Shown here in pieces: positions 10,434 to 15,438 of a stretch of 24,940 nucleotides of DNA. The stretch lies in IMG/VR virus record IMGVR_UViG_3300018080_000567, positions 1-24,940 of that record; one strand, given 5' to 3'. Within the stretch, counting starts at the first letter, position 1, and every line of letters begins with the position of its first letter. The stretch is from a virus. The notes beneath the pieces are model-generated. The model saw only the letters and a list, made by a program, of their open reading frames with translations. It was not told the DNA's origin and made no database searches. Position numbers and translations under genes: made by a program.

Positions 10434-11809
10434 TAGACTATTGTCCTCTCTCTTTCAATTCTTGCCATTTCTTCCTCTAGCTCTTCCGTGTTCATGTTGG
10501 GGTAGAGCTTAGAAATGAGCTTTTCTTGTGAAATCACTCCCGCATCTCTCTCCATTATAGCAACGGATACCTCTGTGGTCCTGTCAACCAAGGGTCGTGG
10601 AGGATCAAACTCTGTCGTGACTTCCCAGTTGTCTGGCAGGAGTGAAAAACCCGACAAGGATCCATTTGCCACCCAAAAATTATGCATATGCTGGAGTAGA
10701 TCCCAAAAAGCTGTCTCGTCGTTGATAAATGCTTTAATCGATTTGTTTCTTGCCTCAAAGGTATCCATCTCATCAATGATTTTTGAGATACCAGAAGCTG
10801 ATGCCGATCCATCCGTTGATCCAATAGAGCCAACTCTTATCCCCTTAGTTTCCATCCAAGTGGAGAATGTGTCCTTGATAAAAGAAAGCACCTTGTCCAC
10901 GTCTACATCGGGCTTAATTGTCCCAATTTGCGGAACTTTGTCAGATTGTGGGTCAGATTTGATGGCCCAAAAAGCATTTGGTGACATAACAATGTTTTTT
11001 GGGTCCGCGTCTATGGTGTAGACTATGGAAAAACATTGAAACATGATAGCACCCGCGAGGTCGGTGAGCTGGACAGGTAGAAGCTTGGAGAGTTCCAGGG
11101 TATCGGTGTCTTGCTGTGGAATTATGGAATATTCTGACCTATTCGCATAATAGAATGGAATCCGCTCATACGGATTAGTGGTATCTTCCAGCGGTTCACC
11201 GGTCTCGGGGTTTACCATTAACTCAGGGACAGGACGCCCTTCTGAGTCCATGGCAATAAATTCTTCATCTGTGTAAACAAACCAAATATCTAGCTCAGTC
11301 TCTTGTCCGCGAGAGTTTTTCATAAATCTCTTGCCGACAAATTCAAGAAAGTGCGTGACCCGTGTGGGGTCTACTAAATCGGATGAGTAGGTTAGAAACC
11401 TATCGAATGGGATAACTTTCAACTGAGGTTGTCCCATGTGAATAAAGGGTTTGAGAGCATACCCCTTAAAAAGCTGGGAAAATTCATCTGCGGTGTTCAT
11501 TCTCTCGTTAAAACGAAAGATATCTTCGTAATATTCTAAAGTTTCTTGGTTAGATGTGGCCGTACGAATGGGGTCCGTTCGGTATGTTTGGGCGAGTTTA
11601 TCAATAACTCTCCTAAGGATGTTAATCGGGTAAATTCTTGTTTTGATCTTCTGGTAATACTCATCTGATAAGGATTGCCTGAGGATTTCCATTACATATT
11701 TCAGTAAATTCCCCTGATAAATATCAAAAAGCTCTTTGTTTCTTTCAAGATAAAGCTTTTTATCCTCGATATATTTCGCCAGGATTACCAATTCATCTTT
11801 TAGCGCCAT
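10433..11809 (-). CDS. Portal protein
   Basis: 458 aa. The N-terminal part has the long helices and INILRRVIDKLAQTYRTDPI at about 63-82, then a beta wing (LKPFIHMGQPQLKVIPFDRF, FVYTDEEFIAMDSEG), and a helical clip/stem and C-terminal crown (GIRVGSIGSTDGSASASGIS, MEEEMARIERERTIV-like end). This order and length fit SPP1/P22-type portals, the dodecameric ring at the head vertex through which DNA is pumped. It follows terL by 7 nt and precedes neck-like genes, the standard order. Confidence 0.8.
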   Translation of the reverse strand: MALKDELVILAKYIEDKKLYLERNKELFDIYQGNLLKYVMEILRQSLSDEYYQKIKTRIYPINILRRVIDKLAQTYRTDPIRTATSNQETLEYYEDIFRFNERMNTADEFSQLFKGYALKPFIHMGQPQLKVIPFDRFLTYSSDLVDPTRVTHFLEFVGKRFMKNSRGQETELDIWFVYTDEEFIAMDSEGRPVPELMVNPETGEPLEDTTNPYERIPFYYANRSEYSIIPQQDTDTLELSKLLPVQLTDLAGAIMFQCFSIVYTIDADPKNIVMSPNAFWAIKSDPQSDKVPQIGTIKPDVDVDKVLSFIKDTFSTWMETKGIRVGSIGSTDGSASASGISKIIDEMDTFEARNKSIKAFINDETAFWDLLQHMHNFWVANGSLSGFSLLPDNWEVTTEFDPPRPLVDRTTEVSVAIMERDAGVISQEKLISKLYPNMNTEELEEEMARIERERTIV

Positions 11810-11816
11810 TATTTCC

Positions 11817-13964
11817 TCACAATTGTATAGTTTTAGACCTTCTGAAATTCACTTGGAACTCCCAATCTATCAAATAGTCCAGGCCATCGGAAAGATGGGT
11901 GAGTTTATCGTCTTTATCTTTCACTTTACTGTAATCAACTTTGTTTTGCTGGACCTTTTCAAAATCCTTAATAGTTTTCTTGCACGATGGGTCAACGATG
12001 ATTTGCCCGTGGGAGAGAAGACCATTAACCAGGATTTGCCTTTCCCTAAGCCTGGGGTTTGCTGCTTTATATCGGACTTGTTCTTGGGAGAACCCTAAAG
12101 AGTGGAGAGTTTGAACATCTGAGCGCCCTGATGTCTTACGGGACTTTCCCGAGGCATCACAGGTGATGATGACACGCCCTAGACCGAAGCGAGTAATAAT
12201 GGCCCTACCCATTTTAAGAGTGTCGGAATCGCCCTCTAGGAGTAACTCTCCAAAGACAAAGAGTGTTTTCTTGCCGTCTATGTAGCGAAGATGGGAAAAA
12301 GTTGCCGCCATTTTACCGACGTTAAAGTCGAGTCCCACATGGACTAATTCAGATTTGTCTTCTGTATTGGGGGCAACGTTTACTTTTCTCTGAAAGGCAT
12401 AATAAAAGTATTCACCACCAAGGCGGACTATTTGACCGGAGGCGAAGACTTTGAGCGACTGCTCGTCAAGGAGTCCCTCCAGTGTTTCCCGATAATTCTC
12501 GTCAATAAACGTATTTTCAGCGGTATCGGAATAGACAATCTTGAAAGCGTTAGGATTTTTTTCATTTCTTGCCTCCTGCTGCTCAACAAAGTCTTCGAGC
12601 CAACCATGAATGTCTTCCGGTGTCCCGGCCAGGCATTTTTGCTTATATTTCGCCTCCTTTACCCGAACCCGTCGGATCATTTCGTTGATTCTGACCCAGG
12701 GGACGAGGGAGAACTCGTTGATGAGGCAATAGGCAAGGTTGGGACCGGCGATTGGCTTTTCTGCGGTTAAGATATACAGCGGGCGCTTGTTCCAGACGAA
12801 GCGAAATTCTTTGTGAGTCTCATGGAACCAGTAGTGGGTGTTTTTGATCATTCCCACCGCCTCAAAGATTGACTCGAATGTGGGGAGAACGTCTCTTCTG
12901 AAGTCTGAGAAGGCGGGTACGAGAAAACCCCCGGCATGACCGCGATTCAAAATGGAGAGTTTAAGAGCTTTCCGGCACAGATAATAAGTTTTGCCTGAAT
13001 TGTGGTGATACATCCCATGTGCCAGGTAGTTATTAGATCCAAACACATGGAGATCCCAAAACCATTCCTTTTTTTTCTTTTCTATGGCAACTATTCTGCT
13101 GGTGGTTTTGGTGCAGGAGGAACCTAATGGCAAAGTACAATGTTGATCTGATATTTGAGCTAAGTGACGGAATAATGAAGTCAAGGGAGATTGCTGAAAT
13201 TGTCGGATGCCCCATAAAATATGTCCAAAAGATTTGGTTAAAAAACCCTCATTTAAAAAGGCCAAAGCAGGCGCCGCCTGTAGGAAAGTGTAATCCAGCA
13301 TACAAAACAGGTCGATCAATCCAAAAAGATGGTTACGCTTTAGTGTGCATCCCTCCTGGTCATCCATATGGAAGGTACTGGAAAGGCCCTGAAAAATACG
13401 GTCGAATTTATGAGCATCGAAAGGTAATGGAGGAGTATATTGGTCGCTATTTACTGCCATCTGAAGTCGTTGACCATATTGATGGATGCAGTCTCCATAA
13501 TGACATAAAAAATCTTCGACTATTTGACTCAAACAAGGATCATCTAAAAAAGACCTTAGCCGGGAAAACTCCTGATTGGTCACAGAGGGGACAAGAAAAC
13601 TTTGTCGGGAAAATTGCAAGGCCACCTCATCCAAGGATTGATACCTATCACCACCGACGCAAATCCGGTGCGATCCGTGTGCTTCAAATTCTCCGTGCTC
13701 ATGAATTACTCGATAAAGAATCCCCTTTTCTTTTGGGTACGGCACCGTACCTGGAAAAAGCGAAGGTTGACCTTGGCGATTTCTTGAAAAGTAAACTTGT
13801 GGCGAAAGAATATCTCCTACAGCGACATCGCCATTTGTGGTGTGCAGAATAGTTTTTTCCGAAACACAACCCAACCCACCTGAAAACAGCAGGATGTCGG
13901 TCTTGTCGTCGTCATAGCATATTTCTTGAGCGGGAAGCTTATCCCACCTGAGATCGATGTCCAT
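11817..13964 (-). CDS. terL: Large terminase subunit interrupted by an intein in Walker A
   Basis: The precursor is 715 aa. Residues 1-32 and 323-715 form the terminase extein (425 aa). Walker A is split: FSGGLG at 27-32, then SGKTYYLC from 323. Walker B looks like AYCLINEF, with Asn-Glu where Asp-Glu is usual. The nuclease has an RNase H-like set of acids: VGLDFNVG, IITCDASGK and LSDGLDYL (D693/D696). The ATP motor and nuclease package the DNA into the head with the portal. The ATG overlaps the small terminase stop as TAATG. Residues 33-322 are an intein, so ATP binding, and hence packaging, needs protein splicing. The antisense strand of the intein carries an HNH gene. Confidence 0.9.
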   Translation of the reverse strand: MDIDLRWDKLPAQEICYDDDKTDILLFSGGLGCVSEKTILHTTNGDVAVGDILSPQVYFSRNRQGQPSLFPGTVPYPKEKGILYRVIHEHGEFEAHGSHRICVGGDRYQSLDEVALQFSRQSFLVPSVTNQEFSRLRSFLDDPCLSQIVEDFLCHYGDCIHQYGQRLQMAVNSDQYTPPLPFDAHKFDRIFQGLSSTFHMDDQEGCTLKRNHLFGLIDLFCMLDYTFLQAAPALAFLNEGFLTKSFGHILWGIRQFQQSPLTSLFRHLAQISDQHCTLPLGSSCTKTTSRIVAIEKKKKEWFWDLHVFGSNNYLAHGMYHHNSGKTYYLCRKALKLSILNRGHAGGFLVPAFSDFRRDVLPTFESIFEAVGMIKNTHYWFHETHKEFRFVWNKRPLYILTAEKPIAGPNLAYCLINEFSLVPWVRINEMIRRVRVKEAKYKQKCLAGTPEDIHGWLEDFVEQQEARNEKNPNAFKIVYSDTAENTFIDENYRETLEGLLDEQSLKVFASGQIVRLGGEYFYYAFQRKVNVAPNTEDKSELVHVGLDFNVGKMAATFSHLRYIDGKKTLFVFGELLLEGDSDTLKMGRAIITRFGLGRVIITCDASGKSRKTSGRSDVQTLHSLGFSQEQVRYKAANPRLRERQILVNGLLSHGQIIVDPSCKKTIKDFEKVQQNKVDYSKVKDKDDKLTHLSDGLDYLIDWEFQVNFRRSKTIQL
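12999..13868 (-). other. Intein in terL (290 aa) without an in-frame homing domain
   Basis: The intein begins with Cys1 (codon 13868-13866) after GGLG and ends with His289-Asn290 (codon 13001-12999) before Ser+1 of SGKT. Block A is CVSEKTILHTTNGDVAVGDI. Block B is around 59-72 (EFEAHGSHRICV), with His67 at the catalytic histidine position and His64 where Thr usually stands. Block F/G is WFWDLHVFGSNNYLAHGMYH followed by HN, with Asp272 and the terminal HN pair in place. All classical splicing residues are therefore present. The middle (about 95-250) shows no LAGLIDADG or sense-strand HNH motif. It is the reverse complement of a separate HNH gene. Confidence 0.9.
13127..13852 (+). CDS. HNH homing endonuclease encoded antisense inside the terL intein
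   Basis: 241 aa on the strand opposite terL. A perfect AGGAGG at 13115-13120 lies 6 nt before the ATG. Residues 10-40 form a helix-turn-helix (KSREIAEIVGCPIKYVQKIW). Residues 62-92 are the usual GR-x-DGY-V-P-HP-G region. The HNH core is at 94-141: IYEHRKVMEEYIGRYLLPSE, VVDHIDGCSLHN, NLRLF, then His139. Key residues are H97, H117, D119, N125, N129 and H139. Residues beyond about 150 are basic and probably follow the antisense of the intein N-terminal block. The gene lies wholly within intein residues 6-248. The likely role is cutting intein-less terL alleles to drive spread of the intein. The enzyme family is certain enough, the target is inferred. Confidence 0.88.
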   Translation: MAKYNVDLIFELSDGIMKSREIAEIVGCPIKYVQKIWLKNPHLKRPKQAPPVGKCNPAYKTGRSIQKDGYALVCIPPGHPYGRYWKGPEKYGRIYEHRKVMEEYIGRYLLPSEVVDHIDGCSLHNDIKNLRLFDSNKDHLKKTLAGKTPDWSQRGQENFVGKIARPPHPRIDTYHHRRKSGAIRVLQILRAHELLDKESPFLLGTAPYLEKAKVDLGDFLKSKLVAKEYLLQRHRHLWCAE

Positions 13965-14374
13965 TAGAGGTAGACGTTTACCGTGTTATCGCTCTGGTCA
14001 ATCTCTCTCATGCCCAGTGCGGCCTTGGCGAAAAAGATCGAATAGGCGGTTTTCCCGACCCCTGTAACGCCATTTGAGTTGATGTGGACGTACTGGATCT
14101 GTTTACAGACTTTGTAAGCGTCGGCAAATTCTGGGTGTTTTTTCACCCATTCGTAAAAAGTGTCTTTTGAAATCCCTAGTTCAATACAAAAAGACTCGAA
14201 AAATGGAGGCGGATTTGGACGCTCTTCCATCACGGTGATCACTTCACCATTGGCCACTTTTTCGACTTCTTTCATGACGGTGAGGGGGACTGATTTGAAA
14301 TATTCAAGTAGTTTTTCGCAGTATTCTTCCCTATAGGTGCTTGGTCGTCCTACGGGTCTTTTTTTTTCTTCCAT
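13964..14374 (-). CDS. terS: Small terminase subunit
   Basis: 136 aa with AGAGGAATAA before the ATG. The start MEEKKRPVGRPSTYREEYCE is typical of TerS and homeodomain-like proteins. IELGISKDTFYEWVKKHPEF at about 64-83 is the helix-turn-helix that recognises the packaging site. The C-terminal part (TGVGKTAYSIFFAKAALGMR and IDQSDNTVNVYL) would form the oligomerisation and terL contact. It overlaps terL by one base. A TATAAT box and a palindrome lie upstream. It feeds phage DNA to the packaging motor. Confidence 0.8.
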   Translation of the reverse strand: MEEKKRPVGRPSTYREEYCEKLLEYFKSVPLTVMKEVEKVANGEVITVMEERPNPPPFFESFCIELGISKDTFYEWVKKHPEFADAYKVCKQIQYVHINSNGVTGVGKTAYSIFFAKAALGMREIDQSDNTVNVYL

Positions 14375-14384
14375 TTATTCCTCT

Positions 14385-14399
14385 ACTGTTACGAACAGT
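14385..14399. promoter_or_regulatory. Perfect 6-3-6 palindrome upstream of terS
   Basis: ACTGTT-acg-AACAGT is an exact inverted repeat lying 11 bp upstream of the terS ATG and downstream of the TATAAT at 14427-14432. It also overlaps a possible plus-strand -35 (TTGTGG at 14399-14404). This is a good shape and place for a repressor operator that could control terS and the divergent small gene. It could alternatively act as an RNA hairpin in the terS leader. Confidence 0.45.
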
Positions 14400-14426
14400 T
14401 GTGGTGAAGTTACAAACTCCTCTAAA

Positions 14427-14687: not shown

Positions 14688-14842
14688 GAGAACATTATCA
14701 AAAGCATAACGAACAGAATAAAAACAGACACCATAAAAACAACGCCGATCATGTCTAGTTCGCAGCCGTTTTTTTGGCAAAGAAAGGCCGCGGTAGATGC
14801 TGCGGTTGTTACTGCTACGGTTGTTGTGCTGTAAATTTTCAC
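14684..14842 (-). CDS. Tiny membrane protein, two hydrophobic segments
   Basis: 52 aa from GTG 14842, whose G is the last base of the Nudix TAG stop, so translation is coupled. Residues about 6-20 (TTTVAVTTAASTAAFLC) are mildly hydrophobic. Residues about 30-52 (MIGVVFMVSVFILFVMLLIM) are a clear transmembrane segment, joined by CQKNGCELD. The ribosome-binding site is weak. It could be an accessory membrane or holin-like protein, but it is outside the lysis block. The reading frame fits the gap exactly and ends sharing its stop with the plus-strand gene. Confidence 0.45.
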   Translation of the reverse strand: MKIYSTTTVAVTTAASTAAFLCQKNGCELDMIGVVFMVSVFILFVMLLIMFS

Positions 14843-15438
14843 TAATAAAGCCCTGGCATATCGCCCTCGTAGTGATTAAACTCTTCGTATACATCGGCAT
14901 CTTCCCCTCTAGGTGCCTGAGAGAGAAGAACCCTCATAAGAATAAGAGAGAGTAGTGGTGCGGTATCCATGGTGACAATATCGTCATCTGTGAGCCAGTG
15001 AACGCTTGCCCCTTCTTCCCCTTTGGAACCATCGCCCTTGATTTCACCTTGCTCAAGATCGGTCACGTCTACGGTATAGAGATGGGTTACACTATCACTC
15101 ATCTTTGATCGGTAGCTTCTTCCCCAATATTCGAGATCGTCCTCTTTGACCAAAAAGCCGGTTTCTTCCATGAGTTCTCGGAGAGCGCACTCGCTTTCAG
15201 TCTCTCCTTCTTCTACTCCCCCAGTGACAGAGGTAAAGCTCATTCCTCCAAATACTGGGATGTTTTCCTCTCTTACGAGATATTCGACAACAATATTTGG
15301 CCCTGGGTTTTCGTTCTTTGCCCTTCTATAGGGGAGGATACAGACAGCTTGGTTGGTACCGGGGTGCCTGTAAAACGTGTACCATCCATCTTTTTTATAG
15401 ATATCGATGTGCTCATTTTTAAAAAGGTTCTCTTCCAC
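14842..15438 (-). CDS. Nudix hydrolase
   Basis: 198 aa from GTG 15438, with AGGAG 6-7 nt upstream. The full Nudix box lies at 73-95: G73, E79, R87-E88, E91-E92, G94-F95, matching GX5EX7REUXEEXGU exactly. The upstream beta strands (AVCILPYRR, NIVVEYLVREENIPVFGG) and the downstream HWLTDDD are typical of ADP-ribose or nucleotide-sugar pyrophosphatases. In phages such enzymes clean up or alter nucleotide pools, ADP-ribose or NAD metabolites. The substrate is not determined. It precedes a tiny membrane gene and follows a strong terminator, so it needs its own promoter, not confidently seen. Confidence 0.9.
   Translation of the reverse strand: MEENLFKNEHIDIYKKDGWYTFYRHPGTNQAVCILPYRRAKNENPGPNIVVEYLVREENIPVFGGMSFTSVTGGVEEGETESECALRELMEETGFLVKEDDLEYWGRSYRSKMSDSVTHLYTVDVTDLEQGEIKGDGSKGEEGASVHWLTDDDIVTMDTAPLLSLILMRVLLSQAPRGEDADVYEEFNHYEGDMPGLY

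Follow-up and report, generated by a model that had tools for sequence, protein, structure and literature searches.

The terminase large subunit gene (terL) of the phage studied here most likely carries a mobile intein in its Walker A motif, with a homing endonuclease gene encoded antisense within the intein, a reading to which a probability of roughly 0.88 is assigned. The phage is represented by IMG/VR record IMGVR_UViG_3300018080_000567, of which positions 1 to 24,940 were analysed (the window, 24,940 nucleotides). Comparison with relatives makes it probable, though less firmly so, that this is a widespread and previously undescribed intein architecture, in which an HNH gene has been overprinted antisense on the intein. 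In the major clade, the C-terminal domain of the HNH protein would then be two-way coded with the catalytic blocks of the splicing (HINT) domain, leaving one stretch of DNA selected for splicing and homing on opposite strands.

The terL precursor is encoded by a single open frame (Table 1), with Terminase_6N and Terminase_6C matches above the Pfam cutoff. The intein site is the Walker A motif, GGLG/SGKT (the slash marking the insertion point), and taking the intein out restores the sequence LLFSGGLG/SGKTYYL. The residues of a class 1 intein are present, namely an N-terminal Cys (C1), a C-terminal HHN, and a +1 Ser, and the intein profile matches DnaB and DnaX mini-inteins. Using the Pfam model Intein_splicing, 42 of 54 members match at E<=0.01, the window intein's own match lying below the gathering score. 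The AlphaFold model of the intein reaches a pLDDT of 92-97 at residues 1-80 and ~260-290 and falls to 40-50 over much of the middle, and Foldseek matches it to DnaB, DnaE, and RecA mini-inteins, in line with a HINT fold. The low-confidence gap sits between splicing blocks B and F, the site of the endonuclease domain in canonical inteins, and this sense-strand middle has no endonuclease match in Pfam or PHROGs. An earlier note on this DNA had described a complete terL intein with both splicing ends and no in-frame endonuclease domain. The ends (C1...HHN/S), the restored GGLGSGKT, and the predicted HINT fold bear out the first part; as for the second, the middle is no more than the HNH gene translated in antisense, and the prediction leaves it unstructured. 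The same phage also carries a NUDIX hydrolase gene (14842-15438, minus strand).

Table 1. Coordinates of the terL precursor, its intein, and the antisense HNH gene in the window
Feature	Position	Strand	Details
terL (terminase large subunit) precursor ORF with intein	11817..13964	-	715 aa, one open frame
N-extein	13869..13964	-	32 codons; C-terminal end ...FSGGLG
Intein	12999..13868	-	290 aa, terL residues 33-322; C1 ... HHN, +1 Ser
N-terminal splicing (HINT) segment	13584..13868	-	Blocks A to B, residues ~1-95
C-terminal splicing segment	12999..13106	-	Blocks F and G, residues ~255-290; free of HNH CDS overlap
C-extein, remaining terminase with ATPase and nuclease domains	11817..12998	-	
HNH endonuclease gene	13127..13852	+	241 aa, ATG start; antisense, wholly within intein 13868-12999
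Shine-Dalgarno AGGAGG of HNH gene	13115..13120	+	6 nt upstream of ATG
Helix-turn-helix region of HNH protein	13142..13243	+	Residues 6-39
HNH catalytic core	13400..13561	+	Residues 92-145
Dual-coded stretch	13584..13852	both	HNH C-terminal domain (+) facing N-terminal splicing domain (-); in relatives, few substitutions at all three codon positions

On the opposite strand, the earlier note had read a full HNH enzyme with a helix-turn-helix, an HNH core, and an AGGAGG motif, and all of these are found (Table 1). The protein matches phrog_10730 (HNH endonuclease) at E 1.9e-46 and Pfam HNH_3 at E 3.7e-5, the latter slightly under the gathering score. Residues D116, H117, N125, N129, and H139 are invariant or nearly so, with H117, N125, N129, and H139 invariant among 54 relatives. 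The AlphaFold model of the HNH protein, built with 54 relatives, has a mean pLDDT of 86, and its top PDB match is I-HmuI (1u3e) with a probability of 0.99; since the core alone matches, the TM-score is low. A weak profile match to I-HmuI is likewise seen for the core. The HNH stop codon falls 16 bp short of the N end of the intein. HNH codon position 1 lies opposite terL position 1, HNH position 3 opposite terL position 2, and HNH position 2 opposite terL position 3. In the window, the near-invariant HNH residues G181, R184, I188, and L189 face intein block B (E60 to R68, including H67), and L203-G204 face intein K46-P45. When the HNH codons are shuffled synonymously, the terL frame acquires a mean of 7.8 stops, and 0 of 20,000 shuffles are stop-free, as the real sequence is, so that the nesting in the window is beyond chance. 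A promoter/terminator scan revealed no convincing promoter for the antisense HNH gene, as promoter-like matches are no more frequent than chance gives, and the plus-strand ones fall inside the gene.

The arrangement is not restricted to this phage. Loci were gathered by IMG/VR scans with HNH alignments and with the N-terminal splicing domain, and from bacterial genomes, and were profile-scored in six frames. An HNH gene nested antisense in the intein, with an identical codon phase, is present in 252 of 258 loci, these being the best-scoring matches (best 80 of 282 and best 80 of 509 relatives) with the same contigs partly repeated. The remaining six comprise three free-standing Streptomyces HNH controls, two intein-less alleles, and locus L091. 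After removal of redundancy, the HNH proteins form 132 clusters at 90%, 91 at 70%, and 23 at 50% identity, and the two-strand design occurs in at least 130 distinct relatives. C1 is found in 235 of 236 complete relatives, and both C1 and the HN/S, HN/T, or HN/C ends are nearly universal. The insertion is mostly at G/SGK or G/TGK, and five loci (L162, L163, L165, L168, and L171) have an antisense-HNH intein at a neighbouring site, GK/T. Twenty exteins were tested; they are of Terminase_3 or Terminase_6 type, apart from one without a Pfam family (L001) and a few further ones with weak matches only or with matches only to intein/Hint models. A Shine-Dalgarno-like motif precedes 73% of the relatives' HNH starts vs 5% of internal ATGs, a comparison in which the choice of start favoured such motifs. 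Among cultured phages, long HNH matches are found in eight Pectobacterium/Dickeya phages and Pseudoalteromonas phage PHS3, where the HNH lies opposite the terL strand, and full reading of three records (Koroua, Sabo, and PHS3) confirmed the nesting. Across 50,697 phage records, long HNH-family matches were restricted to these Pectobacterium/Dickeya phages and PHS3, with no actinobacteriophage among them, short matches having been partly inspected. A scan of viral contigs with the single window terL protein found nothing, and a plasmid search gave no match. The nested antisense HNH is thereby confirmed and far broader than first noted: the sense splicing blocks and the antisense HNH frame are both kept in 252 of 258 loci, and 241 of the 252 HNH frames appear intact. 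A broken HNH alongside an intact intein in every homologue, which the earlier note had named as refuting, is thus not what the loci show. An assembly error, the other worry raised in the earlier note, is ruled out, since the arrangement recurs in isolated Pectobacterium/Dickeya phages, in PHS3, and in a complete E. coli chromosome.

The nested HNH genes occur in two forms. In the long form, to which the window belongs, the HNH extends to within ~60 bp of the intein N end, while in the short form it ends ~120-260 bp from it, in or near the linker. Free-standing relatives match the HNH core only and are without the C-terminal extension. The HNH tree mostly splits long from short forms (5-6 changes vs 26-30 in shuffles), yet it does not fix a short-to-long direction, because the free-standing outgroups sit on long branches. 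With the root of the tree unsure, it could be inferred that overprinting on the splicing domain gave rise to the C-terminal domain of the HNH, and the two forms are a possible record of one gene coming to overprint another. In about five lineages, the HNH has decayed and the intein has been kept. For example, the HNH of locus L250 is split by a nonsense change with the intein frame intact, and N-terminal HNH deletions with an intact intein frame are seen in loci L203, L225/L227, L248, and L255. With the N-terminal half of the HNH deleted in frame, the inteins of these five loci are down to 203-224 aa and are natural intermediates on the way to mini-inteins. Decay of the HNH with retention of the intein is as expected if selection for homing lapses and splicing stays essential, and the loss of the HNH in some relatives means that it is dispensable for terL function. 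It could be argued from these lineages that the element is also degenerating in the present phage, with an intein that still splices and an inactive HNH. However, the window HNH is full length, retains its catalytic residues, and is preceded by a consensus Shine-Dalgarno sequence, which makes such decay unlikely here.

Evidence for mobility comes from sequence identities and from empty alleles. HNH proteins share 53-63% identity between hosts with exteins sharing just 20-28%, and an HNH identity so far above that of the exteins points to movement between unrelated terL genes. An Enterobacter prophage has a 1008-bp intein that Escherichia phage PHB10 and E. coli ET729 lack precisely, to the codon boundary, and E. 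coli 63-2 likewise lacks, at the exact boundary, the 1008-bp intein of E. coli MEI003. In total, 783 E. coli genomes, 63-2 among them, match the MEI003 terL at >=90% identity, and the intein is covered by MEI003 alone. The +1 serine codon is AGY in two intein alleles (L086 and L098) and TCN in three empty ones (L096, L097, and L259), a difference that is possibly a trace of co-conversion or target immunity. These observations also bear on the idea that the HNH is a terminase-associated packaging nuclease, which would aid terL, take no part in homing, and lie antisense in the intein by chance. Some phage HNH proteins do aid terminases (PMC11855218), and the HNH gene sits in terL wherever the extein is classifiable. 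Yet hundreds of E. coli genomes have a close terL without the intein and hence without this HNH, the HNH decays while terL and the intein remain intact, one HNH family serves unrelated terL types, and the predicted structure matches a homing enzyme, I-HmuI. A packaging role without homing is improbable, more so than decay of the HNH in this phage.

Both frames of the nested pair are under selection. In 33 lineages, defined at the 60% HNH identity level, synonymous shuffles predict 245 sense-frame stops and none is observed; the test is slightly circular, as intein ends were required, and a set without that filter agrees. Free-standing HNH relatives have 14, 3, 5, and 23 stops in the same antisense phase, and a single sense stop, possibly an error, occurs in one of the 252 nested loci (L105). 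Differences per codon were counted separately for terL positions 1/2/3 in 19 independent close long-HNH pairs (17 in a first version). The exteins (0.189/0.127/0.497) show normal sense coding, and the non-overlapped intein ends give 0.123/0.064/0.396 and 0.120/0.072/0.379. In the intein middle (0.135/0.341/0.112), change is fast only at HNH third positions, in 19 of 19 long-form pairs and likewise in 3 of 3 short-form pairs; evolution of the middle is therefore that of an HNH gene, leaving the sense protein there free except for stops. In the splicing domain overlapped by the HNH, the long-form values (0.070/0.104/0.121) indicate constraint on both strands, whereas the same part, not overlapped in the short-form pairs (n=3), gives 0.074/0.047/0.377, which is normal sense coding and thus isolates the effect of the overlap. 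The comparison of synonymous-site constraint in both frames accordingly places the HNH frame under protein-level purifying selection opposite a stop-free sense frame. With >100 lineages in which splicing domain and nuclease constrain the same DNA, the family offers a large natural data set on two-way coding.

It could also be considered that the insertion is removed as RNA, as an intron whose endonuclease gene runs antisense (the Didymium rDNA case), or that it is never removed, as in the ShiLan element. Both kinds of element exist (PMC9548176, PMC11855218), but the sense frame is stop-free in all 33 lineages, the intein splicing residues are complete, a HINT fold is predicted, and an unremoved insertion would break the essential Walker A loop; group I/II intron identity was also rejected, as no Rfam intron family matches over 11800-14400. 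Either form of this explanation is very improbable. That the HNH frame is a functionless, passive antisense ORF arising from the codon composition of the intein has next to no probability, for while codon bias can in general generate long antisense ORFs, this one belongs to a recognised HNH family with invariant catalytic residues and free-standing relatives, has a Shine-Dalgarno motif ahead of 73% of its starts, and changes about three times faster at HNH third than at HNH second positions despite the former being terL second positions.

The nesting has consequences for database annotation. In RefSeq, the terL of MEI003 (NZ_CP071263.1 151257-153544, L098) is a pseudogene without its N-terminus, with the HNH entered as an opposite-strand gene, while in PHS3 (KX912252.1 17336-19314, L005) terL is annotated from downstream of the intein and the HNH as a separate gene. 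Taken together with the Pectobacterium phages (L003 and L004), such terL genes are labelled as pseudogenes, given a downstream start, or called "hypothetical", probably because pipelines refuse nested antisense genes. An annotation fault is thereby exposed.

The following mechanism could be proposed for the mobile Walker A intein. The sense strand would give a terL precursor, from which the HINT domain (the first ~95 and last ~36 intein residues) would excise itself, the ~150 residues between the HINT halves being a tolerated linker whose sequence is just the HNH gene read in antisense. The opposite strand, once transcribed, would give from its own ribosome-binding site a helix-turn-helix HNH endonuclease related to I-HmuI, which is encoded in a phage group I intron. 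In a terL gene without the intein, this enzyme may cleave the conserved Walker A codons, after which repair by recombination would copy the whole block by gene conversion, delivering splicing domain and endonuclease together; for the recombination step, the Erf-type protein encoded by the window phage (17408-18010, plus strand) is a candidate. The central proposal of the earlier note, that the mobility enzyme is supplied from the other strand, is supported by purifying selection on the HNH frame, conserved nesting, and the lack of an in-frame endonuclease.

The textbook intein is a single-frame element in which the endonuclease is part of the intein protein. The present element shares with PI-SceI and TliVMA (PMC8966425) the HINT domain, the position of the endonuclease information, which lies between blocks B and F, and the homing logic. 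However, the endonuclease of PI-SceI and TliVMA is a domain of the intein protein, whereas that of the window is a protein of its own, encoded on the other strand; with no endonuclease match in the sense middle, assignment to the in-frame class was rejected. The insertion in the Walker A region of terL is shared with the mycobacteriophage terL P-loop inteins, and the searchable text of that mycobacteriophage intein survey has no mention of an antisense endonuclease (0 matches for "antisense" or "opposite"; PMC5050341). In the literature searched, which excludes a 2025 preprint on actinobacteriophage inteins of "non-canonical architecture" (10.1101/2025.01.02.630785), no antisense endonuclease inside an intein was found. 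Antisense homing endonuclease genes are known from rDNA group I introns, such as L2066 of Didymium squamulosum encoding I-DsqI (PMC9548176), where the gene likewise runs opposite to the strand of the self-splicing element. Yet that system involves eukaryotic rDNA, RNA splicing, and a His-Cys box enzyme (PMC9548176), and as a group I intron carries no sense protein, no two-way protein coding is needed there. Of the published systems found, the ShiLan element comes nearest (PMC11855218, 2025); its "hidden" HNH lies out of frame within a methylase gene of an actinophage. Both it and the window element have an HNH in another frame of a stop-free, seemingly mobile insertion, with distantly related HNH cores. 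While the ShiLan HNH lies on the host-gene strand, with no splicing domain and no detectable ribosome-binding site, the window HNH is antisense, inside a true intein, equipped with a Shine-Dalgarno sequence, and overlaps the splicing domain, and a ShiLan-type insertion was rejected for the window on account of the opposite strand and the splicing domain. By every feature testable, the element is a member of the intein family, and its enzyme is an HNH endonuclease by motif and fold; what was not found described is the coding arrangement. With the two functions divided between the DNA strands, neither co-translation with the host protein nor release from it is required of the endonuclease.
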